A stretch of 64,000 nt of DNA from Adlercreutzia sp. ZJ176 (GTDB lineage: Bacteria > Actinomycetota > Coriobacteriia > Coriobacteriales > Eggerthellaceae): NCBI RefSeq assembly GCF_011038975.1, contig NZ_JAAKEC010000001.1:1-64000 (forward strand), in the 5' to 3' direction. Of this stretch, positions 51,395-64,000 are shown in pieces. A program made the position numbers and the translations under genes. Below the pieces are notes generated by a model. That model made no database searches, was not told where the DNA came from, and saw nothing but the letters and a program-made list of their open reading frames with translations. Position 1 is the first letter of the stretch, and each line of letters opens with the position of its first letter.

Positions 51395-52888
51395 TTACCC
51401 GCACTCGTCGACGATGTCCATGAGGCGCTGCTGCGAGTTGATGCCGAGCTTCCGGTAGATGTGGTAGATGTGCGACTTCACCGTGGCGGGGCTCACGGTG
51501 AGCGCCCCCGCGATGTGCTCGGCGTTGCGCCCGCGTGCCAAGAGGACGAGCACCTCCCCCTCGCGCGGCGTGAGCGCGTAGCGCTCGGCCACGTGCGCGC
51601 AGCGCTGCTCGAGGCTGAGCGCCTGAGGCTCGGGGTCCTCCCCCTCCTCCTGCGCGACCGCCTCGACCACGCCCTTGCCCGCCACGTCGAGGAGGTCGTC
51701 CAGGCGCGCGCGCATCTCCGACTCGTCGCCGCCGTACACCGAGAACGACACCACGACCACGACGGCGAACAGGGCCATGGCGAGGCACAGCGCCATGCCC
51801 TCGAGCCCCAGCGTGAAGACCAGCACGAACGCGAAGGCCGACCCCAGGAAGAACCCGAGCCACGAGGGAGCCTGGCGCATGGCGTAGCGCCTCACGGGAT
51901 GCAGGCGGAACTCGTAGTTGTCGATGCTCGTGGAGTACCAGGCGAACACCGAGGTGTGCGCCAGGGCCATGTTGGCGACGCAGCCGCACGCGACGCGCGC
52001 CGCGCCGTCGCAGAACGGCAGCAGAAGGACGCTCGCCACGAGGAAGGGCAGCGTGATGCGCTGGACGACGCCCACGTCGACGTCCACGCGCGCGCCGAGG
52101 AAGTTCCAGACGAACACGAGCAGGATGCCGCCGATGCCGCTCGCCCCGCCGATGAGGGCGGCCTCGTAGCCCATCGAGCACAGCTCGACCGTCATGAATC
52201 CGTACACCGCGCCATGGCAGGCGACCGAGACCGCCGCGGTGGCCGAGAGCGCCGGGGCGGCGCGAAGCTCGTTAACGCGCGGCACGGTCTCGCGGGGGAC
52301 GCGCCGCGAGAGGAAGGCCACCGCGCCCATCGACCCCCCGATGAGCAGCGCTATCTGCAGCAGGCTCGCCCACACCAGGCTCGTCGCGTTCACCAGCACG
52401 AACAGAAGCGTCCCGAGCGCCGCACCGCACGCGATGACGTGCGCCGTGCGCTTGGTGGGCACGATGCTGAAGAACACGCACCAGCACGACATGGCGCTCG
52501 CCTGGGCGAAGCCGAACAGGGCCCACACCGCGACCGACACCGCGAAGGGAAGGGGCGCAACGTAGGTGCTCGCGAGCGACTCCGCCACCGCCACGAGGGC
52601 GAGAAGCGCGCTCAGCGGAAGGAGGCGGCCGCGATGCTCGTACACCCAGTCGGCCTTCAGGCCGTAGGCCACGTAGGTCACGACGAGCGCCAGGACCGAG
52701 GCGATGCGCAGCTTCATCCCCTCCTCGATCGAGCACCACGAGAGCAGCGGGACCGACGGCGCGAACACCGCCGTGAGCTCCCATCCGATGAGGCACGAGA
52801 AGCCGGCCACGGCCACGAGGTACAACGGCTGCAGATCGACGGCCGCCTGCGGCTGATTTTCTGATTTCCCCTGATCAAGCGCGTACAC
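51395..52888 (-). CDS. LuxR-family regulator fused to a 12-helix membrane domain
   Basis: The 497-residue protein has about 400 residues of hydrophobic helices arranged like a major-facilitator fold, a charged linker (about 400-435), and a C-terminal LuxR helix-turn-helix (LTPREGEVLVLLARGRNAEHIAGAL...VKSHIYHIYRKLGI, about 437-490). This architecture is expanded in Eggerthellaceae, where such regulators sit beside inducible oxidoreductases and are thought to sense small molecules through the membrane part. The GTG at 52888 was chosen for GAGGGGG five bases upstream; the frame stays open to 52930. It is divergent from the molybdoenzyme operon. Confidence 0.88.
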   Translation of the reverse strand: MYALDQGKSENQPQAAVDLQPLYLVAVAGFSCLIGWELTAVFAPSVPLLSWCSIEEGMKLRIASVLALVVTYVAYGLKADWVYEHRGRLLPLSALLALVAVAESLASTYVAPLPFAVSVAVWALFGFAQASAMSCWCVFFSIVPTKRTAHVIACGAALGTLLFVLVNATSLVWASLLQIALLIGGSMGAVAFLSRRVPRETVPRVNELRAAPALSATAAVSVACHGAVYGFMTVELCSMGYEAALIGGASGIGGILLVFVWNFLGARVDVDVGVVQRITLPFLVASVLLLPFCDGAARVACGCVANMALAHTSVFAWYSTSIDNYEFRLHPVRRYAMRQAPSWLGFFLGSAFAFVLVFTLGLEGMALCLAMALFAVVVVVSFSVYGGDESEMRARLDDLLDVAGKGVVEAVAQEEGEDPEPQALSLEQRCAHVAERYALTPREGEVLVLLARGRNAEHIAGALTVSPATVKSHIYHIYRKLGINSQQRLMDIVDECG

Positions 52889-53110
52889 AGAGACCCCCTC
52901 AACATTTGAGTATGACACTGAAACGCCCAAAGAACCGAATTCAACATCAGCAGCTGTCGATTCGAAAAGGGAACAGGCCGATACTTTCGCCTAGGCGACC
53001 GCTTACGGCGAAGGATGCGCCTCGGTTCCCCTGCCATGCGACTTTCCGCACAGCGCATACCGTCTCATAAGCGCGCCCCGCAGTCAAACCTTTGAGAGAA
53101 AGGAACGTCC
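52889..53110. promoter_or_regulatory. divergent control region of the LuxR and molybdoenzyme genes
   Basis: These 222 bases carry promoters for both directions, though no near-consensus boxes are visible. The palindrome CGCCTAGGCG at 52988-52997 and the pair TTCGCC/GGCGAA around 52986-53013 are candidate sites for the LuxR protein. CATTTGAG/CTCAAATG-type AT-rich sequence lies near the luxR start. Confidence 0.4.
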
Positions 53111-53377
53111 ATGTGCTTCAGACCGCCTACCGTGGACCAGGGGCCGGCAAAGTGCCCCCAGTGCGGAGCGATCGTCAACCCGACGCTTGACGAGTGCCCC
53201 AGCTGCGGCGCCAAAGCCGCCCCCAAGACGCCGGGCGCGCCGCCTGCGCCGGGAGCCCCCGGCGTTCCGGGCGTCCCGCCTGCGCCGGGCGTGCCGGGCG
53301 TGCCGGGCGTGCCAAGCGCCCCGGGCGTCCCGGGCGCGCCTTCGGTCCCGAAGGTGCCCACTCCCCCCGCGCCCTAG
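53111..53377 (+). CDS. small zinc-ribbon protein with a Pro-Gly repeat tail
   Basis: This 88-residue protein has a zinc ribbon at about 15-33 (CPQCGAIVNPTLDECPSCG) followed by some 50 residues built of GVPG, GAPG and PAPG repeats, similar in composition to collagen or elastin stretches. GAAAGGAA precedes the ATG. It is 91 bases upstream of the molybdoenzyme and likely in the same operon. Possible roles are a metallochaperone-like or scaffold protein for the enzyme; this is a guess from position only. Confidence 0.6.
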   Translation: MCFRPPTVDQGPAKCPQCGAIVNPTLDECPSCGAKAAPKTPGAPPAPGAPGVPGVPPAPGVPGVPGVPSAPGVPGAPSVPKVPTPPAP

Positions 53378-53468
53378 GGCCGAGGGAAAGACGCGGGCCC
53401 CTGGGCGCGGCCGCCTCTCGAGCGCGCGGCAAGGGGCCCGTTCCGTTTCAGACGAGTGAGGAGAGAAG

Positions 53469-56084
53469 ATGGGAAGCAGCGTAACCGGCACTTCTATCAT
53501 CAAGGGCCTCGGCTTCAACAGCTTCGGCATCGGAGCCAACGCCTGCACGGTTGACATCGACGAGGAAAACGACAAGATCCTGCGCATCCGCCCGTTCCAC
53601 TTCGACGAGCACTACACGCCGGAGGAGCTGAACTACTGGAAGATCGAGGCGCGCGGGCACACCTTCGAGCCCGGCCTCAAGACCTACATATCGCCGCTGT
53701 CGCTCAGCTACAAGAAGCGCGTGTACTCCAAGAACCGCATCCCCTGCCCGCTCAAGCGCGTGGACTGGGACCCGGACGGCGAGCGCAACCCGCAAAACCG
53801 CGGCAAGAGCGCGTACGAGCGCATCAGCTGGGATGAGGCCACGAGCATCATCGCCCGCGAGATCAAGCGCATGCACGACACCTACGGGCCCGAGGCCATC
53901 CTCTGCGAGGTCGACGGCCACGGGGAGACGAAGGTGGTGCACGCGGCCCACGGCTCCATCACGCGCCTGCTCGACGAGTGCGGGGGCTACACCCTCCAGT
54001 CGCGCAACTCCGACAGTTGGGAGGGCTGGTACTGGGGCGCCAAGCACATCTGGGGCATGGACCCGCTCGGCCAGACCTCGTTCCAGAACAACATCATCAA
54101 GGACATCTCCGAGAACGGCGACGCTGTGCTGTTTTGGGGCTGCGACGTGGAGACGACGCCTCTGGGCTGGGGCGGCTACATGGCGAGCCGCATCTGCGCG
54201 TGGTTCACGGAGATCGGCGTCAAGCAGATCCACATCGCGCCCGACGTGAACTACACGAACGCCGTGCACGCCGACAAGTGGATCCCGGTGCTGCCCAACA
54301 CCGATGCGGCCCTGCAGCTGGCAATCGCCTACACCTGGATCAAGGAGGGCACCTACGACCAGGCCTACCTCGACACCCACGCCGTGGGCTTCGACAACTT
54401 CAAGTACTACGTGATGGGCGGCGAGGACGGCGTGCCGAAGACCCCGAAGTGGGCCGAGGCCATCTGCGGCGTGCCCTCCTACACCATCAAGGCGCTCGCG
54501 CGCTACTGGGCGCGCCACGCCGTGTCCATCGCCCACTGCAACGGCGGCAGCTTCATCCGCAGCTGCTTCAGCCACGAGCCGGCGCGCCTCGAGGTGGCGC
54601 TTTTGGGCATGCAGGGGCTGGGCAAGCCGGGCGCCAACCAGTTCAAGATGCTCGAGTGGACGCTGTTCGGCATCCCCACGGTGACGCCGCTGCCGCCCTC
54701 GACGTGCATCCCCAACATCGGCGCGGCCTACCTCGGCTTCATCACGGGCACCAAGCCGAGCTTCATCCCCAAGACCATGATCCCGCAGGCCATCCTGAAC
54801 CCGCCCGTGCAGTGGTACGGCCACATCGCGGCCGGCCTCCCGCGTGAGGACCAGTTCACCGGCCCGTTCACCTTCCCCGTCGAGGGCAAGTCGCGCATCC
54901 ACATGGTGTGGTCTGACACGCCCTGCTGGGAGACGTGCTGGAACGGCGGCTTCAAGATGCAGGACGCGCTGCGCCACGACTCCATCGAGTTCGTGGTCAT
55001 CCAGCATCCCTGGATGGAGAACGACTGCAACTTCGCCGACATCATCATCCCGTCGAACACCAAGTTCGAGACCGAGGACATCGGAACCGACAACGACTCC
55101 GGCCAGTGGACCGTGGTGTTCTACGAGAAGCAGGCCATCAAGGCGCGCATGGACTCGAAGTCCGACGTGGAGGGCGTGGCCGAGATCGCCCGGGCCCTCG
55201 AGAAGTTCGGCGGCGTCTACGAGAACCTCCACGAGCGCTTCATGGGCGGCAAGTCCTTCGACGAGTGGATCAAGGCGGGCTTCGAGACGTGCGGCATCCC
55301 CGAGGGCGCGATGACCTACGAGGAGTTCAAGGAGAAGCAGTACTACCCGTTCCCCACCCTGGAGAACTGGGAGGACATGCCCGCCGGCCTCATCGGGTTC
55401 CACGACGACCCCGAGGGCAACCCGCTGCGCACGCCCTCAGGCAAGCTCGAGTACTACTCCACCACGCTGGCGCAGATGTTCCCGGACGACAAGGAGCGCG
55501 GCCCCATCCCCCGCTGGGTGCACGTGAGCGACGAGCACGAGGAGCGCACGAACACCGAGCGCGGGCGCACGTACCCGTTTTTGCTGGTGAGCAACCACCC
55601 GCACTTCCGCGTGCACGCCCAGCACGACGACGTGACCTGGCTGCGCGAGATCGAGACGTGCAAGGTGGTGGGCCCCGACGGCTACCGCTACGAGCCCATC
55701 TGGGTGAACCCGATCGACGCGGGCAAGCTGGGGCTTGAGACCGGCGACATCGCCAAGCTCTACAACGAGCGCGGCGGCGTGCTCGGCGGCGTCATCGTGA
55801 GCGAGCGCATCATGCCGGGCGCCCTGTACCAGGACCACGGATCGCGCGTCGACAGCATCGTCATGGGCGAGGGCGGCCTCGACCGCGGCGGCGCGAACAA
55901 CCTGATCGCGCCGAGCGCGACCACCTCCAAGAACGCCGCCGGCGAAGTGACCTCGGGCTTTTTGGTGAACATCGAGAAGGTCGACGTGTTCGCGCTGGCC
56001 GAGCAGTACCCCGAGGCGTTCTCGCGCGACTACGACCCCGATTGCGGGCTGGTGGCCACGGCTCGCATGGTGGAAGGAGCATAG
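53469..56084 (+). CDS. bis-MGD oxidoreductase, pyrogallol transhydroxylase / catechol dehydroxylase family, large subunit
   Basis: The 871-residue protein belongs to the DMSO-reductase family branch containing Pelobacter pyrogallol-phloroglucinol transhydroxylase (about 875 residues). Shared blocks run through it: YWKIEARGHTFEP near 56, ERISWDEAT near 115, NSDSWEGWYWG near 180, YTWIKEGTYDQAYL near 290, QGLGKPGANQ near 383, and the C-terminal DHGSRVD...LDRGGANNLIAPS. Asp182-Ser183 match the Asp/Ser (Mo ligand) pair of the transhydroxylase, and His151 aligns with its active-site histidine. There is no N-terminal Fe-S cysteine motif and no Tat signal, so it is cytosolic like the Pelobacter enzyme. 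AGGAGAGAAG precedes the ATG. The substrate is not determined; phenolic ring transhydroxylation or dehydroxylation is likely. Confidence 0.85.
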   Translation: MGSSVTGTSIIKGLGFNSFGIGANACTVDIDEENDKILRIRPFHFDEHYTPEELNYWKIEARGHTFEPGLKTYISPLSLSYKKRVYSKNRIPCPLKRVDWDPDGERNPQNRGKSAYERISWDEATSIIAREIKRMHDTYGPEAILCEVDGHGETKVVHAAHGSITRLLDECGGYTLQSRNSDSWEGWYWGAKHIWGMDPLGQTSFQNNIIKDISENGDAVLFWGCDVETTPLGWGGYMASRICAWFTEIGVKQIHIAPDVNYTNAVHADKWIPVLPNTDAALQLAIAYTWIKEGTYDQAYLDTHAVGFDNFKYYVMGGEDGVPKTPKWAEAICGVPSYTIKALARYWARHAVSIAHCNGGSFIRSCFSHEPARLEVALLGMQGLGKPGANQFKMLEWTLFGIPTVTPLPPSTCIPNIGAAYLGFITGTKPSFIPKTMIPQAILNPPVQWYGHIAAGLPREDQFTGPFTFPVEGKSRIHMVWSDTPCWETCWNGGFKMQDALRHDSIEFVVIQHPWMENDCNFADIIIPSNTKFETEDIGTDNDSGQWTVVFYEKQAIKARMDSKSDVEGVAEIARALEKFGGVYENLHERFMGGKSFDEWIKAGFETCGIPEGAMTYEEFKEKQYYPFPTLENWEDMPAGLIGFHDDPEGNPLRTPSGKLEYYSTTLAQMFPDDKERGPIPRWVHVSDEHEERTNTERGRTYPFLLVSNHPHFRVHAQHDDVTWLREIETCKVVGPDGYRYEPIWVNPIDAGKLGLETGDIAKLYNERGGVLGGVIVSERIMPGALYQDHGSRVDSIVMGEGGLDRGGANNLIAPSATTSKNAAGEVTSGFLVNIEKVDVFALAEQYPEAFSRDYDPDCGLVATARMVEGA

Positions 56085-56087
56085 ATC

Positions 56088-56924
56088 ATGGGTAAGGTTT
56101 TCGTATTCGACTTCGCGAAGTGCACCGGCTGCCGCAACTGCCAGCTAGCCTGCAAGGACGAGCACGTCGACAACGACTGGGCCCCGTACGCCGCGCCCCA
56201 GCCCGACACCGGCCAGTTCTGGGGTCGCATCGAGGAGAAGGTGCGCGGCCAGGTGCCGAAGGTGCGCGTGAGCTACGCGTGGCGCGCCTGCCAGCACTGC
56301 GGGAACGCGCCCTGCATGGCGGCTGCCACGGCGGCGGGGGCGCCGGACGCCGTGTACCGCCGCGACGACGGCCTCGTGATCGTCGACCCCGTTGCCGCAC
56401 GCGGGTGCGAGGTCCTCGCCGAGGCGTGCCCCTACGGCGTGATCTTCTACAACGAGGAGCTCGGCCTCCCGCAGAAGTGCACGGGCTGCGCGCACCTGGT
56501 GGACGAGGGGCTGCCGCCGCACTGCGTGGACGTGTGCCCGCACGAGGCGCTGCGCTTCGGCGACGAGGAGGACTTCGCCGCCGAGATCGCACAGGCCGAG
56601 TTCTGGATGGCCGAGCGCGCCGAGGCGGACGAGCCGCGCGTGTACTACCTCAACAAGCCGCGCCGCTTCTTGGGCGGGGTGGTGGTCGACCTCGAGGCCG
56701 ACGAGGTCATCGTCGGCGCGAAGGTGACGCTCGAGGACGTGCGCACGGGCGCGGTGCAGGCCGCGCTCACCGACGAGTTCGGCGACTTCTGGTTCGAGCA
56801 GATCCCGGCTTCCGAGTACCGCGTCTACTTCGAGGCGGACGGCTACCTGACCCGCATGCTCGAGGCGACAACAGAGAACGAGGACCGCAACATGGGTCCC
56901 GTCGCGCTGTACGCCACCGCGTAG
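56088..56924 (+). CDS. Fe-S electron-transfer subunit of the molybdoenzyme with C-terminal beta-barrel domain
   Basis: The 278-residue protein has cysteine groups for three [4Fe-4S] clusters: CTGCRNCQLAC (12-22), CQHCGNAPC (near 66-74), CEVLAEACP (near 107-115), and CTGC...CVDVCP (near 128-152). After residue 195 comes a Cna_B/transthyretin-like beta domain (GGVVVDLEADEVIVGAKVTLEDVRTG...FGDFWFEQIPASEYRVYFEADGY). Exactly this layout and size are found in the transhydroxylase small subunit of Pelobacter and rarely elsewhere. The gene starts three bases after the large-subunit stop. Confidence 0.88.
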   Translation: MGKVFVFDFAKCTGCRNCQLACKDEHVDNDWAPYAAPQPDTGQFWGRIEEKVRGQVPKVRVSYAWRACQHCGNAPCMAAATAAGAPDAVYRRDDGLVIVDPVAARGCEVLAEACPYGVIFYNEELGLPQKCTGCAHLVDEGLPPHCVDVCPHEALRFGDEEDFAAEIAQAEFWMAERAEADEPRVYYLNKPRRFLGGVVVDLEADEVIVGAKVTLEDVRTGAVQAALTDEFGDFWFEQIPASEYRVYFEADGYLTRMLEATTENEDRNMGPVALYATA

Positions 56925-57121: not shown

Positions 57122-57406
57122 TCAGCCGAAGCGGTACGACACGCCCATGCTTCCCCGCGGGTAAGCCCACCTCTCCACGATGGTGCCCCCGCACAGGATG
57201 CGGCACGTGCCGCACTCGAGGCAGCCCGCGTAGTCGAACGTCGGGGCGCCGTCCTCGTCGCGCTGGTAGAGCGCGGCGGGGCAGCACGTCACGAGCTTGT
57301 CGAACTCGGCCGCGTCAGCGTCCCGGACTACCACGATGTGCGGGACCTCCTCGTCGACGGCGTACTTGTTCACCGACAGCTTCTCGTCAACGGTTGTCAT
57401 GCTCAT
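57122..57406 (-). CDS. fixX: FixX-type ferredoxin-like protein
   Basis: This 94-residue partner of FixC has the cysteine set CC near 41 and CLECGTCRILCGG near 62-74, ending WAYPRGSMGVSYRFG as FixX proteins do. It would carry one [4Fe-4S] cluster and pass electrons between FixC flavin and a membrane quinone or other acceptor. Its ATG overlaps the FixC stop (ATGA). Last gene of the minus-strand operon. Confidence 0.9.
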   Translation of the reverse strand: MSMTTVDEKLSVNKYAVDEEVPHIVVVRDADAAEFDKLVTCCPAALYQRDEDGAPTFDYAGCLECGTCRILCGGTIVERWAYPRGSMGVSYRFG

Positions 57407-58689
57407 AAGGCCTTCACCCCCCTGCGCACGTCTTTGAGGATGTTCCGCAGGCCCACGCGCCGCACGGCGGGCCTCACCTTGTCGCGCAGGCGCCCCACGG
57501 GGCTCCCGTCAACCGCGAACATGCCCCGCATGACCTCCGCGGCCATCGCGGGGTACTCCCCGTACAGACGCGGCGTCTGCTCCAAAAACGCCGGCAGGCC
57601 CGCGTGGTCCCTCAAATCCTGCAGCACGAAGCAGTCCTCGAGGGCCTCCCGGTAGCCGGCGAGCCCCTGCTCGGACGTGTCACCCGCGTCGATGGCCGCC
57701 ACGGCGGCCTGCGCGGCGGCCGCGCCCGACGCCATCGCGTAGTCCATCCCCCGCACCTGGTACCCCAGGTTGACGCACAGCATCGCCGCGTCCCCCGCGA
57801 GCAGGCAGCCGTCGCACGCCAGCTTGGGCACCATGGCGAGGCCCCCCTCGGGGACCATGTGGGCCGAGTACTCCACGAGCTTGCCGCCCGCAAGCACCGG
57901 CGCCACCGCCGGGTGCTCCTTGAACGCGTCGAGCATCTTGTATACCGGCGTGGAGGAGCCGCACAGATCCGACAGCGTGGCCACCACGCCGATCGAGACG
58001 GACGTGCGGTTGGTGTAGAGGAAGCCGCCCCCTGCGTGCCCCTGCGTCGCGGCGCCCACGAACAGCCAGGCGCAGCCCTCCCCCTCGGGCACCTGGAACC
58101 GGTCGCTTATCACGCCCTCGGGAAGCTCGATGACCTCCTTGGCGCTCACGGCCATCTGGTGCGGCAGCGGGCGCTTCGCCAGGCCCGCGCGCTCCGAGAG
58201 GAGCGAGTTCGCCCCGTCGGCGAGGATGGTCACCTCTGCGGTGATCTCGTCATCCCCCGCCCTCACGCCGCACACGCGCCCGCCGTCCATCACCAGGTCC
58301 TCGACGGTGATGCCGAACACGCACTCGGCGCCCGCCTGCTCGGCCTGGTCGGCCAGCCACGCGTCGAACGGCGCGCGCAGCACCGCGTACGACGCGTTCT
58401 CAGGCAGGCCCAGGCTCGGCGAGGCGAACTCGAGCGTCGTGTTGTCGGCGTCGGTCAGAAACGACACGCGCTCGCGCGTGATCTTGCGCTCGAGCGGCGC
58501 CTCATCGGCGAAGTCGGGAAGCACCTTCGCCAGCGCGTGCGCGTAGATGCGCCCGCCCGTCATGTTCTTGGAGCCGGGCTCGCCCGCGCGGTCGATGAGC
58601 AGGACGCTCTTGCCCGCGCGCGCCAGCTTGACGGCAGCCACCGACCCGGCGCACCCGGCGCCTACTACGATGGCATCGAAGTCAGCCAC
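57403..58689 (-). CDS. fixC: FixC-type flavoprotein (ETF:quinone oxidoreductase-like)
   Basis: The 428-residue FAD protein begins DFDAIVVGAGCAGSVAAVKLARAGKSVLLIDRA, a Rossmann dinucleotide fold. It has KNMTGGRIY near 42 and the second FAD motif LLAGDAAMLCVNLGYQVRGMDYAMASG near 300. FixC works with FixX and the ETF-like FixAB to transfer or bifurcate electrons. GTG start with AAGGAG five bases upstream. It lies two bases after the CoA-ligase stop. Confidence 0.9.
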   Translation of the reverse strand: MADFDAIVVGAGCAGSVAAVKLARAGKSVLLIDRAGEPGSKNMTGGRIYAHALAKVLPDFADEAPLERKITRERVSFLTDADNTTLEFASPSLGLPENASYAVLRAPFDAWLADQAEQAGAECVFGITVEDLVMDGGRVCGVRAGDDEITAEVTILADGANSLLSERAGLAKRPLPHQMAVSAKEVIELPEGVISDRFQVPEGEGCAWLFVGAATQGHAGGGFLYTNRTSVSIGVVATLSDLCGSSTPVYKMLDAFKEHPAVAPVLAGGKLVEYSAHMVPEGGLAMVPKLACDGCLLAGDAAMLCVNLGYQVRGMDYAMASGAAAAQAAVAAIDAGDTSEQGLAGYREALEDCFVLQDLRDHAGLPAFLEQTPRLYGEYPAMAAEVMRGMFAVDGSPVGRLRDKVRPAVRRVGLRNILKDVRRGVKAL

Positions 58690-58691
58690 GT

Positions 58692-60260
58692 CTACTCCTT
58701 GTCTTCGGTATCTTCGGTCTTGCTCTTCTCCGCGCTCTCGGAGAGGGCCCTCCTCAGCGCGTCCTTCACCACCTTGCCCGAGGCGTTGCGCACGATCTTT
58801 TTCAGGAAGAGCACGTGGCGGGGCTTCTTGTAGCCGCCGAGGCAGTGCTCGCAGCGCGCGGCTATCTCGTCGGCAGTCACCGCGGGCGCGCCCTCGGCGG
58901 CCACCACGAAGGCGGCGAGCGCCTCGCCCCAGACGGGGTCGGGGACCCCTATGACGGCCACGTCGGCGATGCGCTCGCCCAAGCCCCTGATGCAGCGTTC
59001 CACCTCGAGCGGGTACACGTTCTCTCCCCCGGTTATCACCAGGTTGTTCTTCCGGTCGACCAACGTGAGGCATCCCGCCGTGTCGAAGAACCCGATGTCG
59101 CCCGTGAAGTACCAGCCCTCCCTCATCACCCGCACGGTCGACGGCGCGTCGCGGTAGTAGCCGTTCATGAGCGTGGGCGTCTTCACCGCCACCTCGCCGA
59201 GCACGCCCGGCTGGCACTCGCGCCCCTGTTTGTCGATGACGGTGACCTCCATGCCCGGCAGGGCGCGCCCCACCGTGGAGCGCAGCGCCGCGCTGTCGTG
59301 GTCGCACGGCTCGAGCAGCGTGACGGCCGAGGCCGTCTCCGTCATGCCGTAGCCCTGGATGAGGCCGCAGCCCAAGACGCGCCGGCACCGCACGAGCAGC
59401 TCCTCGTCGATGGGCTCGCCCCCGTAGAGGACGTAGCGGAGCGAGTCCATCCGCTCGCCCGTCTTCTCGAGGCGGGCGACGAGCAGGCGCAGGACGTAGG
59501 GGACCACGCCCATGCGCGTCACGCCGTGCTCGTTCACCAACCGCACGATGTCCTCGGGGCGGCTCGAGTCGTCGATGACCACCTCCGCCCCCGCGAAAAA
59601 CGCCGCGAACGTCGAGACCGAGGTGATGTGGAACAGGGGCAGGACGCTCAGAACCACGTCGTCGCCGGTGAACCACATGGCCCGGACGTCGATCTCCGCG
59701 CGGGCGACGAGCGCCTGGTGGGAGAGCATGACACCGTGGGGGTCCCCCGAAGTCCCGCTCGTGTAGATCATGAGCACCGGGTCCGACGCCGCCCTCTCGA
59801 CGTGCCGGTCGAAGGGCTCCGCGGCCGCGACGAGCTCCTCGTAGGCGGACAGCCCGAACGCGTCCCCGCTGTCGAGCAGGATGACGGCGAGGGGGCGGCC
59901 CACCCCGCCGATGGCCGGCGCGAGCCTCTCCCACACCGCCGACGAGCACACGAGCACGGTGGAGCTTGACTTCCCCAGCAGGCGGACGAGCGCCGCGGGC
60001 GACAGGCGTATGTTGTACTGCTCGCACACCGCGCCGATCTGCGCGCAGGCGAAGGTGAGCTCCACGCACGCCAGCGCGTTCGCCGTCACGAGCGACACGT
60101 GGTGCCCACGGCGCACGTGCAGCGCGCGCAGGACTCCCGCGAGGCGATCGACCCTTCCCTTCACCTGCGCATACGTGAGCGCCCTGCCCTTGCAGCGCAA
60201 CGCGACCTTGCGCGGGCTGCGCTGCGCGGCATCGGCCAGTATGTCAGACAGATACGTCAA
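58692..60260 (-). CDS. AMP-dependent acyl-CoA ligase (CaiC-like)
   Basis: The 522-residue ANL-superfamily enzyme activates a carboxylic acid through an acyl-AMP to its CoA ester. P-loop MIYTSGTSGDPHG lies near 168, YGMTETAS near 305, the adenine-binding YFTGDIG near 390, hinge DRKNNLVITGGENVYPLEVE near 410 and the catalytic lysine near 500 (RNASGKVVK). It resembles CaiC/crotonobetaine and medium- or aromatic-acid ligases; the substrate cannot be read. Its ATG overlaps the CoA-transferase stop (ATGA). Confidence 0.9.
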   Translation of the reverse strand: MTYLSDILADAAQRSPRKVALRCKGRALTYAQVKGRVDRLAGVLRALHVRRGHHVSLVTANALACVELTFACAQIGAVCEQYNIRLSPAALVRLLGKSSSTVLVCSSAVWERLAPAIGGVGRPLAVILLDSGDAFGLSAYEELVAAAEPFDRHVERAASDPVLMIYTSGTSGDPHGVMLSHQALVARAEIDVRAMWFTGDDVVLSVLPLFHITSVSTFAAFFAGAEVVIDDSSRPEDIVRLVNEHGVTRMGVVPYVLRLLVARLEKTGERMDSLRYVLYGGEPIDEELLVRCRRVLGCGLIQGYGMTETASAVTLLEPCDHDSAALRSTVGRALPGMEVTVIDKQGRECQPGVLGEVAVKTPTLMNGYYRDAPSTVRVMREGWYFTGDIGFFDTAGCLTLVDRKNNLVITGGENVYPLEVERCIRGLGERIADVAVIGVPDPVWGEALAAFVVAAEGAPAVTADEIAARCEHCLGGYKKPRHVLFLKKIVRNASGKVVKDALRRALSESAEKSKTEDTEDKE

Positions 60261-61498
60261 AGCCCACCAACGTAGTCGGTCTTGCGCAGCACGCGCGCCT
60301 CGTAGAGCCCTGCGATCTCGTCGGCATCGTAGCCCACCTCCGCGAGGATGTCGTCGTTGTCCATGCCCTGCGAGGGGCAGCCGCGCCAGATCTGCGCGGG
60401 GTTGTTCTTGAAGCGCGGAACTGACGTTACGCCCTTCACGTGCCTGCCGTCAACCGTGTCCCACTCAACCCAGGTGCCGCGCGCGAGGTAATGCGGGTGG
60501 TTCTCCATCATCTCATAGCTCATGACCACCGAGCAGGGGATGTTGATGCCCGCCATGGCCTCGGCGAACTCGGCCGCGGTGCGCTCGGCGCAGTACGCCT
60601 CGATGGCGGCGTCGAACACGGGGGCGCCCGGCGTGTCGATGCCCACCGACGGGATGCCCTCGGGGAACAGCTCGCTGCCGTACTCGAGGCCGAAGAACTC
60701 GAGCGCGCGCCTTATGGTGGACTGCCCCGCCGTGAACAGGTACACGCCCTCGCCGTCCTTGCACGCGTAGTAGCCGGAGCCGGCGGAGATGCTGTCGCGC
60801 GGGGCGCCGGCGCCGCGCTCCTCCTGGACGCGCTTCTCGAACCACTTGCCGAACAGACCCGCCTGGCAGCGCACCGCAGCCTCGTACTGGGCTAAGTCGA
60901 AGCTCTCCCCCTTGCCCGTGCGCTGCGCGCCGACGTACGCGGCGAGCGCCGACCCGTAGGCGAACAGCCCGGCGTAGTAGTCGGTCACGAACTTCTGGAT
61001 CATGTAGGGCGGGCCGTCCTTGTAGCCGTTCAGGTACATGAGGCCGGAGAAGGCGTTCACCGTGAAGTCGTATCCGGGCAGGCTCACGTACGCGGGGTCG
61101 CCCGTGAGGCCGTAGCCCGACAGGTGCCCGATGACCAGCCGGGGGTTGTGCTCCCACAGAAGCTCGTCCGAGTAGCCCCACTTCTCCCACTGGCCGCCGC
61201 GCGACGCCTCGATGAAGATGTCAGCCGTCTCGATGACGCGCAGAAACGCCTCGCGGCCTGCGGGGGACACCACGTCGAGCATGAGGTTGCGCATGTTGCG
61301 GTGCTCGTTCTGCACGCCCCACCCGTCCTGCGTCCAGCGGTACGGGTCGATGCCCTTGGGCGGCTCGAGCCAGATGACGTCGGCGCCGTTCTCCGCGAAC
61401 AGCTCGCCCGCGAACGGGCCCGCCGTGGAGACCGCCGCGACCACCACCTTCAGGCCCGCGAGGTTGCCGAAGACCGGCATGTCGTCATATCGTGCCAT
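60257..61498 (-). CDS. family III CoA-transferase (CaiB/BaiF)
   Basis: This 413-residue enzyme moves CoA between carboxylic acids via an enzyme-bound aspartyl-CoA. The family's N-terminal Rossmann region reads LKVVVAAVSTAGPFAGELFAENGADVIWLEPP. The catalytic Asp is expected in the segment around residues 165-175 (GYDFTVNAFSG and following). HLSGYGLTG near 129 is typical. AAAGGCGG precedes the ATG at 61498. Together with the ligase it gives two ways to load a substrate on CoA, as in the carnitine cai operon. Confidence 0.9.
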   Translation of the reverse strand: MARYDDMPVFGNLAGLKVVVAAVSTAGPFAGELFAENGADVIWLEPPKGIDPYRWTQDGWGVQNEHRNMRNLMLDVVSPAGREAFLRVIETADIFIEASRGGQWEKWGYSDELLWEHNPRLVIGHLSGYGLTGDPAYVSLPGYDFTVNAFSGLMYLNGYKDGPPYMIQKFVTDYYAGLFAYGSALAAYVGAQRTGKGESFDLAQYEAAVRCQAGLFGKWFEKRVQEERGAGAPRDSISAGSGYYACKDGEGVYLFTAGQSTIRRALEFFGLEYGSELFPEGIPSVGIDTPGAPVFDAAIEAYCAERTAAEFAEAMAGINIPCSVVMSYEMMENHPHYLARGTWVEWDTVDGRHVKGVTSVPRFKNNPAQIWRGCPSQGMDNDDILAEVGYDADEIAGLYEARVLRKTDYVGGL

Positions 61499-61511
61499 GG
61501 CATCCGCCTTT

Positions 61512-62879
61512 CTACGCGACGTACGTGTCGAAGAACTCGATGGCGCTGTTCGCGGCGAGCTCGGTGCCCACGCCCGAGCCGCCCGCCTCGGCGCCGACGA
61601 CGAACAGGCCCGCAAGCGGCGTCTTGGTGTTCGGCCGGTCGACGCCCGCCTGCCCCGCCTGCTGGGCGATGCCGATGCCCGCGCCGTCCTCGCCCATGAT
61701 GCGCGCCGCGTCGGAGGGGAACACCTTCTCGACGAAGAGGGCGTGCTCGCGGAGCCCGGGGAAGCTCTGCTCGGCGAGGTCGATCAGCGCCTCCAGGATG
61801 GCGGGGCAGTGCTCCTCCTTGATGCCCGCCGGCACGGCCGTCGTCATCATGACGAGCTGCTTGCCCTCGGGCGCCACCGACGGGTCGAAGCTCGAGGGGA
61901 CCACGATGAACGAGTTCAGCTCCTCGGGGACCTCGCCTGCCATAAGGCGGTCGTTGTACTCGCGCACGGGGGTGGACGAGAATCCCGAGAGCATCTTGAT
62001 CTCGGGGCTTATGACGGTGTCGAGCGCGAAGCGCGCGATGATCGACACGAACGATATCTCCAGGCTGCGCACGTCCGCGACATAGCTCTCGTCGAAGTGC
62101 TCAGGGCCCACCAGGCCGTCCACCGTCTCCTTGAGGCCCGCGTTCGAGACGATCATGTCGGCGCGATGTTCCTCGCCGCCGACCACCACGCCGACGGCGC
62201 GCCCGTCCTCCACGACGATTCTCTCCACGGGCGCGCCGAAGCGGACCTCGGCGCCGTACTGCTCGAGGCCCCGCAGGTACGCGCCCAGGATGGCCACGCA
62301 GCCGCCCGAGGGGTAGCCCGAGGCGTGCGCCTCGGCCTCCCACTTGAGGCAGCGCGCGAACTCGCCCGCCGACAGGAGGTACTCGGGGATGCAGCAGTAG
62401 ATGAAGCCGATCTGGCTCACGCACGCGTGGACGAAGGGGTCGGTGGTGTAGGCGTTCAGAAACTCCTCGAGCGTCTGGCCGTCATAGGCGCTCGTGTCCT
62501 CGTCGCTCATGCCCTTCACGTCGGTGACCATCTTGATGACGGCCTCGAAGTCCGCGTCAGGCACGCGCCCCTTGAGGTCCTGGGGGAACTTGAACTTCTC
62601 GCCGCCCGTCGACTGGATGGGGCGAACCTTGGTGAACTCGATGCCGTGGTCCACCTCGCAGCGGTCGAGCACCCCGATGAGCGGGCCCTTCGGCCCGCGC
62701 GAGATCAGGTGGACGCCGAAGTCGACCGTGAAGCCGTCGCGCTGCGACGACCCGATGCGCCCGCCCGGCTGCAGGCGCTTCTCGAACAGCGCGACGCGCT
62801 TCCCGCTGTGGGCGAGCAGCAGCGCCGACGCCAGCCCTCCCACTCCCGCGCCGATGACGATCGCGTCATAGTGCTTCAT
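61512..62879 (-). CDS. CrtI/phytoene-desaturase-like FAD oxidoreductase
   Basis: The 455-residue protein starts YDAIVIGAGVGGLASALLLAHSGKRVALFEK, a dinucleotide-binding fold, followed by PGGRIGSSQRDGFTVDFGVHLI. It ends with FVVGAEAGGSGVGTELAANSA, the FAD-closing motif. The family spans carotenoid desaturases, amine oxidases and retinol saturases. No carotenoid genes are near, and the operon handles CoA esters, so a saturase or desaturase acting on the operon's acid is more likely. Two cysteines in FIYCCIPEYLL are notable. Confidence 0.8.
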   Translation of the reverse strand: MKHYDAIVIGAGVGGLASALLLAHSGKRVALFEKRLQPGGRIGSSQRDGFTVDFGVHLISRGPKGPLIGVLDRCEVDHGIEFTKVRPIQSTGGEKFKFPQDLKGRVPDADFEAVIKMVTDVKGMSDEDTSAYDGQTLEEFLNAYTTDPFVHACVSQIGFIYCCIPEYLLSAGEFARCLKWEAEAHASGYPSGGCVAILGAYLRGLEQYGAEVRFGAPVERIVVEDGRAVGVVVGGEEHRADMIVSNAGLKETVDGLVGPEHFDESYVADVRSLEISFVSIIARFALDTVISPEIKMLSGFSSTPVREYNDRLMAGEVPEELNSFIVVPSSFDPSVAPEGKQLVMMTTAVPAGIKEEHCPAILEALIDLAEQSFPGLREHALFVEKVFPSDAARIMGEDGAGIGIAQQAGQAGVDRPNTKTPLAGLFVVGAEAGGSGVGTELAANSAIEFFDTYVA

Positions 62880-62940: not shown

Positions 62941-63399
62941 CTACCGCTTCGCGGGGAGCGCGTAGTAGTTGAACTTCATGAGGGCGACCTGCTCGTCGTC
63001 GGCGTCGAGCACGGGGACGTCGAGGAAGTAGTCGCCGCGCCCGCGCTCGCGCGCCAGCGCGATCTTGTCCTGCGCCTCCTGCTCGGTGAGCGCGAGGTCG
63101 ACGTGGAGGTCCTTCACGCCGGGCTTCACGTACGCGCACTCGACGCTCTTCAGGATGGGCACGAACTCGTCGGTGCCGTACGTGGCCATGAACAGCGTGC
63201 CGCCCGCGATCTCGGCCAGGACGAACTCGCTTCCCGCGTACGCGATGCCCACGTGGTTGCGGTGCAGCTGCCCCAAGGGGAGCACGATGCGCACGTGCCG
63301 CTCCTCCACGACCTCGGCCCTCAGCTCGGCCCTGTTCACGAACGGCGTCGGGCCCATCGACACGTTGTCAGCCAGCTCCTGGAAAAAACCTGCGTCCAT
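62941..63399 (-). CDS. hotdog-fold thioesterase-like protein (DUF4442/PaaI-like)
   Basis: This 152-residue protein has the hotdog pattern: LPLGQLHRNHVGIAYAGSEFVLAEIAGGTLFMA (helix and first strands) followed by FVPILKSVECAYVKPGVKDLHVDL and ending in strand-rich FNYYALPAKR. It probably hydrolyses or binds acyl-CoA esters, consistent with the ligase and transferase downstream. GGAAGGGAAG precedes the ATG at 63399. Confidence 0.75.
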   Translation of the reverse strand: MDAGFFQELADNVSMGPTPFVNRAELRAEVVEERHVRIVLPLGQLHRNHVGIAYAGSEFVLAEIAGGTLFMATYGTDEFVPILKSVECAYVKPGVKDLHVDLALTEQEAQDKIALARERGRGDYFLDVPVLDADDEQVALMKFNYYALPAKR

Positions 63400-63436
63400 G
63401 ATCTTCCCTTCCGCGCTTCGCATGCACCTGCGAAGG

Positions 63437-64000
63437 CTACCTCTCGAGCTCCGCGACAAGGCGCGGCACCACGTCGTACAGATCGCCCACGATGCCGAAG
63501 TCGGCCTGCTTGAACACGGGCGCGCCCTTGTCCTTGTTTATGGCCACGACGACCTTCGCGCCCGTCGCGCCCACCATGTGCTGCACCTGCCCTGACACGC
63601 CCACGGCGATGAACAGGTTCGGGGTGAGCATCGCCCCCGACACGCCGATGTAGCGCTCGCGGGCCATCCACTTCGAGCCCTCGGCGACGGGGCGCGTGCA
63701 GCCCACCTCGGCGTCCACGGCGCGCGCGAGCCCGTACGCGAGCGCGAGGTCCTCCTCAGCCGCGAAGCCGCGCCCCACGCTCACGATGTTGCGCGCGGCG
63801 CTCAGGTTCACCGCGTCGACCTCGCGCGCACGGCGCTCGACGAGCGTGATCCCCGACGAGCCCGGCTGCACCGCGAAGGTCTCGACCGCGCACGGCGCGT
63901 CGGCGCCCGCGGCGCCCGACGCGTCGGCGCGCTCGGCGGCCTTGCTCGCCAGCAGGGCGGCGCACGGCACCGCCACGACGAAGGCGCCCACGGCGCGCTC
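63437..64000 (-). CDS. fixB: FixB / electron-transfer flavoprotein alpha subunit (5' part outside window)
   Basis: The 188 visible C-terminal residues contain the ETF-alpha FAD-binding signature: NIVSVGRGFAAEEDLALAYGLARAVDAEVGCTRPVAEGSKW, then RYIGVSGAMLTPNLFIAVGVSGQVQHMVG and VVAINKDKGAPVFKQADFGIVGDLYDVVP. The frame is open to the window edge; an internal ATG at 63991 is not the start. FixA (ETF-beta) is expected just beyond the right edge. Confidence 0.92.
   Translation of the reverse strand, partial: ERAVGAFVVAVPCAALLASKAAERADASGAAGADAPCAVETFAVQPGSSGITLVERRAREVDAVNLSAARNIVSVGRGFAAEEDLALAYGLARAVDAEVGCTRPVAEGSKWMARERYIGVSGAMLTPNLFIAVGVSGQVQHMVGATGAKVVVAINKDKGAPVFKQADFGIVGDLYDVVPRLVAELER

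Follow-up and report, generated by a model that had tools for sequence, protein, structure and literature searches.

A predicted RhL/PgtL-family molybdoenzyme locus with a membrane LuxR-type regulator and conserved candidate operators in Adlercreutzia sp. ZJ176

The window analysed here, the first 64,000 nucleotides of contig NZ_JAAKEC010000001.1 of Adlercreutzia sp. ZJ176 (Eggerthellaceae), carries at positions 51395-56924 the genes for a two-subunit molybdenum (Mo) enzyme, for a small zinc-ribbon protein upstream of it and, divergently, for a membrane regulator of the LuxR type. Judged from sequence and predicted structure, the enzyme is a cytosolic heterodimer with a Mo-bis(molybdopterin guanine dinucleotide) (bis-MGD) cofactor and intact His-Asp-Ser active-site residues, and belongs to the RhL/PgtL family of MopB (defined in PMC10100899). 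We propose, with a probability of about 0.5, that the locus is a substrate-induced module whose enzyme acts as a reductive dehydroxylase of a hydroxylated phenylpropenoic or phenylpropionic acid. An earlier note, made from the letters of this DNA alone, had described four genes here; all four are present, with identities far beyond chance, and its central idea of a phenol-active, transhydroxylase-type bis-MGD enzyme with a divergent membrane LuxR regulator is supported. In Adlercreutzia sp. ZJ473 the enzyme is 98% identical and the arrangement is unchanged. The features of the locus are as follows.

51395..52888, minus strand: LuxR-type regulator with 12 transmembrane (TM) helices in the fold of the major facilitator superfamily (MFS) (GerE domain, AlphaFold, Foldseek); the first start, 52930 (TTG), is probably too long
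52898..52918, no strand assigned: candidate operator block 1, consensus CTCAACATCTGAGTATGATAC (eight orthologous loci; 42 bp before block 2)
52940..52960, no strand assigned: candidate operator block 2, consensus TTCAACATTAGCAGTTGTAGA (conservation and genome pattern scan)
52980..52985, plus strand: −10-like hexamer GATACT, AATACT in most orthologues (alignment; putative promoter element)
53111..53377, plus strand: small zinc-ribbon protein of the MCFRP family with a Pro/Gly-rich tail, 88 aa (family enriched beside Mo enzymes)
53469..56084, plus strand: RhL/PgtL-family bis-MGD catalytic subunit, 871 aa (Pfam, solved relatives, trees, residues, Foldseek)
56088..56924, plus strand: Fe-S subunit with three clusters and a C-terminal beta domain, 278 aa (Pfam, solved relative, Cys spacing)

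The best solved relative of the large subunit is pyrogallol transhydroxylase (TH; 4v4c_A, E 2.8e-119), which is also the best match of its AlphaFold model among solved structures (Foldseek E 7.6e-70, template-modeling score 0.82, 31% identity). The subunit contains PF21423 ('Pyrogallol hydroxytransferase large subunit-like, domain 1') above cutoff; Pfam gives no Molybdop_Fe4S4 match, no twin-arginine motif was found in residues 1-60, and no membrane-anchor gene was found in the enzyme operon. In the alignment His151 corresponds to TH His144 and Asp182-Ser183 to TH Asp174-Ser175; these three residues are invariant in 85/85 relatives of the clade, as are Glu185, Gly186 and Trp189, the DSWEGW motif is kept, and TorA lacks the His and the Asp. 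TH Tyr152 and Arg153 are replaced by Ala159 and Ala160, and Tyr421, found in 68 of the 85 relatives, is a candidate for PgtL Tyr404 in an alignment that lacked TH residues 390-444. The small subunit is closest to 4v4c_B (E 5.6e-46), its 13 cysteines are spaced as for three 4Fe-4S clusters, and a CarboxypepD_reg beta domain spans residues 196-260. The matches to both TH chains, the alignment, the Cys spacing and Pfam thus bear out what the earlier note had read from the letters: a large subunit of TH-like length with His151 and Asp182-Ser183 and no Fe-S motif, and a three-cluster partner with a C-terminal beta domain.

TH (AthLS/PgtL; PDB 4v4c-4v4e) resembles the window enzyme in fold, length, His-Asp-Ser site, absence of a large-subunit Fe-S cluster and architecture of the small subunit; it differs in sequence (~31% identity) and in the pocket residues Tyr152/Arg153, and the window locus has its own regulator, MCFRP protein, transporter and coenzyme A (CoA)-operon context. 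Resorcinol hydroxylase RhLS is, by published classification, of the same Ser-coordinated, phenol-hydroxylating family (PMC10100899), but RhL is an oxidative enzyme, and the trees described here contain neither RhL nor DbhL sequences.

In these trees the window enzyme groups with TH (UFBoot 97 and SH-aLRT 95 in one tree, 100/100 in another, SH-aLRT 99 in a third), apart from TorA/DmsA, acetylene hydratase and the catechol dehydroxylases. The 3,4-dihydroxyphenylacetic acid (DOPAC) dehydroxylase Dodh was located by published qPCR primers (PMC7028382), which have one exact site in Gordonibacter pamelaeae, both within one 794-aa gene. Dodh has an N-terminal Molybdop_Fe4S4 domain, its best solved relative is acetylene hydratase, it has no TH match among solved structures, and it joins acetylene hydratase on the side of the tree opposite to the window enzyme. 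Forcing Dodh and the window enzyme into one clade costs 239 log-likelihood units and is rejected (approximately unbiased (AU) test, p 8.5e-10); a published tree likewise separates catechol dehydroxylases from Pht (eLife 2020). Because of the trees, the AU test and the domain content, the window enzyme is RhL/PgtL by descent, and filing it as a catechol dehydroxylase is rejected. Of the placement given in the earlier note, the grouping with transhydroxylase stands; the statement that catechol dehydroxylases belong to the same branch is contradicted by the domains of Dodh, its kinship with acetylene hydratase, the trees and the AU test, and acetylene hydratase is not the closest kin of the window enzyme either.

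The window enzyme shows none of the features of the Dodh clade, namely a position sister to acetylene hydratase, an N-terminal Fe4S4 domain and an Fe-S partner of ~110-120 aa, and the hallmarks of the Eggerthella type (Dadh), a twin-arginine translocation (TAT) signal and a membrane-anchor subunit, are absent from the enzyme and its operon. The Gordonibacter-type catechol dehydroxylases (Dodh; PMC7028382) are similar in being cytosolic Mo enzymes of two subunits from Eggerthellaceae that come with MCFRP genes, transporters and LuxR regulators, and Dodh-like enzymes occur within the same cluster as the window enzyme; they differ in their acetylene-hydratase ancestry, N-terminal Fe4S4 domain and small Fe-S partner.

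The regulator carries a GerE domain (residues 453-506 in annotated-start numbering), and its AlphaFold model (pLDDT 81) shows 12 TM helices in an MFS-transporter fold, the nearest solved folds in Foldseek being MFS transporters (target-normalised template-modeling score up to 0.70). It fits the 10-12-TM LuxR class of Coriobacteriia, in which N-terminal TM helices precede a C-terminal GerE helix-turn-helix (HTH). The 12-helix membrane domain noted earlier is upheld, and the annotated start is probably too long: because operator block 1 overlaps the annotated N-terminus, translation probably begins at GTG 52888 and not at 52930, and the resulting 497-aa protein fits the orthologue lengths of 494-500 aa. 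Control by a membrane LuxR protein is itself already published, since the 12-TM LuxR proteins DadR, HcdR and CadR turn on catechol dehydroxylases in response to substrate (PMC9734109). The window regulator shares with them the 12-TM domain, the C-terminal LuxR HTH and the position divergent from the enzyme; its HTH is 42% identical to that of DadR, whereas its TM domain has no significant sequence similarity to DadR's.

The luxR-enzyme intergenic regions of eight orthologous loci (the window, ZJ473, Ellagibacter, two Raoultibacter and three Gordonibacter) were compared for candidate operators. Both blocks occur in 8/8 loci from four genera, with starts exactly 42 bp apart and 0-4 mismatches, whereas shuffled versions of the intergenic regions of those loci gave a minimum of at least 6 mismatches; an ATACT element follows block 2 by ~20 bp. 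A degenerate form of block 2 has a single zero-mismatch match per genome in six genomes, each at this locus. Block 2 was not found at the distant orthologues L028, L029, L146 and L148, whose LuxR proteins are 31-39% identical, an absence to be expected if regulator and site coevolve. A further pair of blocks, again with 42-bp spacing and with 6-7 mismatches, precedes an MFS gene in G. pamelaeae and in genome G073, two cases that are not independent of each other, and in Ellagibacter the MFS gene is preceded by a looser pair, 39 bp apart; the transporter therefore probably belongs to the LuxR regulon in those Gordonibacter and Ellagibacter genomes. The earlier proposal that the LuxR protein switches on the enzyme is strengthened at the sequence level by these blocks, which make the predicted link much firmer than proximity would. 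The conserved operator also offers a direct handle for finding the inducer by means of reporters.

The zinc-ribbon protein with a Pro/Gly tail, as first described upstream of the enzyme, is present, and it belongs to a family defined by an N-terminal MCFRP, a CxxC-CxxC zinc ribbon and a Pro/Gly/Ala-rich tail, for which no Pfam family scores above cutoff. The MCFRP start pattern was counted 9 times in the window genome, 8 times in Ellagibacter and 11-27 times in genomes of Gordonibacter and Raoultibacter; neither genome G057 nor the reversed control has any. In two genomes 10 of the 17 copies lie ≤2.5 kb from a MopB gene (expected 1.4, binomial p 2e-7). MCFRP genes accompany both Dodh-type and RhL/PgtL-type enzymes; a role as fixed helper of RhL/PgtL enzymes alone was rejected, as the gene lies within 2.5 kb upstream in just 12/73 loci of the relatives. 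Dadh needs accessory genes (PMC11887054), and our guess, by analogy, is that the MCFRP protein might be a maturation or assembly helper. The family can serve to flag unannotated loci of Mo dehydroxylases in a simple way, and its protein is a candidate accessory factor for these enzymes, whose heterologous expression is difficult. MCFRP genes were also seen beside relatives in Sporomusa, and the family is enriched next to two unrelated Mo-enzyme branches. Another tiny zinc-ribbon gene (RanBP-type, 78 aa) lies directly 3′ of the dodh Fe-S gene in three Gordonibacter genomes (L112:7181-7417, L113:10581-10817 and L114:11021-11257).

The locus sits in a cluster of ~22 kb that ends near C11:73.1 kb, past the window. 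Downstream of the enzyme genes and on the opposite strand, the window contains the following genes.

57122..57406, minus strand: FixX-like ferredoxin
57403..58701, minus strand: FixC/YdiS-type FAD protein (NF007450 above cutoff)
58692..60260, minus strand: AMP-forming acyl-CoA ligase
60257..61525, minus strand: CaiB-like class III CoA-transferase (conserved linkage to Mo enzyme)
61512..62879, minus strand: CrtI-type FAD oxidoreductase
62941..63405, minus strand: small conserved protein, tentatively a hot-dog thioesterase (by eye; cluster conservation; no NCBIfam match)
63437..64000, minus strand: EtfA; the operon runs on beyond the window end

EtfA is followed by EtfB and an acyl-CoA dehydrogenase, and then come a LysR regulator, a DASS transporter, a second LysR regulator and a Dodh-like enzyme with a small Fe-S protein. 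The acyl-CoA dehydrogenase scores above the cutoff of NF008997, which we take to be the model of E. coli YdiO, and the electron-transfer flavoprotein (ETF) and FixC proteins match the adjacent models; the operon is of the enoyl-CoA-reductase type (YdiO/CaiB/FixABCX-like). It is like the E. coli ydi and cai-fix operons and the Acetobacterium caffeyl-CoA reductase CarC (6fah) in combining acyl-CoA dehydrogenase, ETF, FixC/FixX, ligase and CaiB-like transferase, and unlike them in being physically linked to Mo phenol enzymes. Five genomes belonging to three genera, namely the window genome, G. pamelaeae, a second Gordonibacter and two of Raoultibacter, have an orthologue of the CoA-transferase (≥83% identity) ~5-15 kb from an enzyme orthologue of ≥80%. 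In G058, from the genus of E. lenta, and in G094, the CoA operon with the LysR, MFS and DASS genes stands beside another Mo enzyme, one on the acetylene-hydratase/dehydroxylase side of the tree and with a membrane anchor, a non-orthologous replacement. Gordonibacter sp. 28C, G. avicola, Marseille-P2775 and a Coriobacteriaceae metagenome-assembled genome have the enzyme 3′ of a Dodh-like enzyme in one operon, followed by a DASS gene.

From these parts the following sequence of events is envisaged. A hydroxylated phenylpropenoic or phenylpropionic acid would be imported by the DASS or MFS carrier and sensed by the MFS-fold LuxR protein, as DadR, HcdR and CadR sense their catechols; the HTH would then bind the sites 42 bp apart and activate the enzyme genes, together with the MFS gene in some species. 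The CoA module would reduce the side-chain double bond, and the RhL/PgtL enzyme, receiving electrons through its Fe-S subunit and perhaps matured or assembled with the help of the small zinc-ribbon protein, would remove a ring hydroxyl reductively. The reductive direction is favoured because it is the reverse of resorcinol hydroxylase chemistry, because the neighbours are reductive (the YdiO-type acyl-CoA dehydrogenase has an ETF and FixCX of its own, and a Dodh-like enzyme shares the operon in several loci) and because another Mo enzyme replaces this one in G058/G094. Several points weigh on the other side. Both characterised RhL/PgtL enzymes hydroxylate or transfer hydroxyls and do not remove them (PMC10100899), and the literature searched holds no activity data for the clade of the window enzyme. 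In the window genome the operator scan gave no copy ahead of either the transporter gene or the gene for the Dodh-like enzyme. As the CoA operon is missing in some loci, reduction of the side chain may be optional or a separate process, and carnitine-like or short-chain acids could be the substrates of the CaiB/YdiO-type proteins instead.

This last point leads to a rather plausible alternative, although one that we hold to be somewhat less probable than its opposite, in which the adjacent CoA operon is an independent carnitine or short-chain enoate reductase and carries no information on the substrate of the enzyme. Its CaiB-like transferase and YdiO-type dehydrogenase would suit such a role, it has its own LysR regulator and is convergent with the enzyme operon, and Ellagibacter and some Gordonibacter loci lack it in the vicinity of the enzyme; the linkage is nevertheless held in five genomes of three genera, and two other genomes pair the module with another Mo enzyme and the same transporters. 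If the link is real, the shared transporter and CoA operons narrow the substrate candidates to aromatic acids.

For the enzyme itself, a redox-neutral transhydroxylase is unlikely, though it deserves weight. It would shift a pyrogallol-type hydroxyl with a polyhydroxybenzene co-substrate, as Pelobacter PgtL does, and so prepare the substrate for the Dodh-like neighbour, an adjoining dehydroxylase that could finish the reaction. PgtL is the closest solved relative in sequence and fold, and the three active-site residues and the DSWEGW motif are kept; however, PgtL is an outgroup at ~31% identity, the exchange of Tyr152/Arg153 for Ala159/Ala160 means that the pocket differs, we recognised no gene of a phloroglucinol or hydroxyhydroquinone pathway in the cluster, and the module carries an unrelated Mo enzyme in other genomes. 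Less probable still is an oxidative hydroxylase that adds a hydroxyl to a resorcinol-type ring and passes the electrons to an acceptor: RhL, a characterised family member, does hydroxylate as an electron-donor reaction (PMC10100899), but the host family consists of anaerobic gut bacteria whose characterised members respire by catechol reduction, the genes linked to the enzyme are of reductive kind (a YdiO-type reductase and Dodh-like enzymes), and a pathway for ring cleavage was not recognised nearby. A catechol dehydroxylase in the published, Gordonibacter-type sense (Dodh/Gp Hcdh/Eadh), as first proposed, is very improbable, for despite the common regulator type, MCFRP accessory gene and genera the enzyme lies in the wrong clade (AU p 8.5e-10), lacks the N-terminal Fe4S4 domain and has a 278-aa Fe-S partner in place of one of roughly 110-120 aa; the contradiction applies to the proposal as a family claim and does not extend to function.

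RhL/PgtL-like genes are present in at least 47/138 Eggerthellaceae genomes and 18/48 genera, with copy numbers per genome that are lower bounds, since six candidates were scored per genome; Raoultibacter timonensis has about a dozen (14 matches, some of them fragments). No RhL/PgtL-like match at E 1e-150 is listed for any of the four genomes of the genus of G057, a genome that has the dadh primer site and probably belongs to E. lenta. Sporomusa, Moorella and Chloroflexota likewise have relatives, at 55-61%. The density of MopB genes is exceptional in the window genome (2.7 Mb; about 40 MopB-family genes, 42 PF00384 matches) and in R. timonensis (107 matches). Published surveys begin with catechol dehydroxylase queries, a different branch, so the RhL/PgtL expansion has probably been overlooked. 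In the literature searched we found no characterised member of the clade of the window enzyme, from the gut or elsewhere, nothing relevant on a CoA-linked route for caffeate in Eggerthella or on Coriobacteriia genes resembling transhydroxylase and, supplements not being covered, no prior report of the enzyme lineage, the operator, the CoA-operon linkage or the MCFRP family. Tentatively, and at somewhat less than even odds, the RhL/PgtL enzymes of gut Eggerthellaceae could be a further lineage of reductive phenol dehydroxylases that arose independently; the one described here would work together with an enoyl-CoA reductase module on a hydroxycinnamic-type acid from the diet, under the control of a LuxR sensor derived from MFS. 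On the same tentative footing, this lineage would stand next to the catechol dehydroxylases resembling acetylene hydratase and the urolithin enzyme of the xanthine-oxidase type. Dozens of Mo enzymes of gut Eggerthellaceae, most of them without an assigned role, help to set the range of phenolic metabolites that the host receives from plant foods.

Two identifications of neighbouring loci were considered and rejected. The Dodh-like neighbour does not appear to be the published Gs Vadh, being ~41-44% identical to the likely Vadh-island copies in Gordonibacter sp. 28C, with a best value of 67% elsewhere, a mismatch that is not decisive because the locus-tag mapping is approximate. The urolithin (eam) cluster is not the orthologous locus either, since L146, the orthologue in 28C, contains a DASS transporter, and no Eah decarboxylase was recognised there. 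Among minor observations, the CrtI (phytoene desaturase)-type FAD protein at 61512-62879 is conserved inside the enoyl-CoA reductase operon, and the Mo enzyme of G058 (L184:6164-9941) and G094 (L185) has three subunits, one of them membrane-anchor-like, and no TAT signal. In R. timonensis (L149; G004:C1:1711000-1730500) a large-subunit gene is in two halves with the CoA operon between them and N gaps, most likely a scaffolding error that joined two repeats. Elsewhere in the window genome, at C48:90.5-93.3 kb (L169:1529-4280, minus strand), there is a Dodh orthologue of 91% identity, accompanied by its Fe-S partner, the second type of zinc-ribbon gene, an MFS gene of 86% identity and an MCFRP gene, and Adlercreutzia sp. 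ZJ176 is accordingly predicted to dehydroxylate DOPAC.

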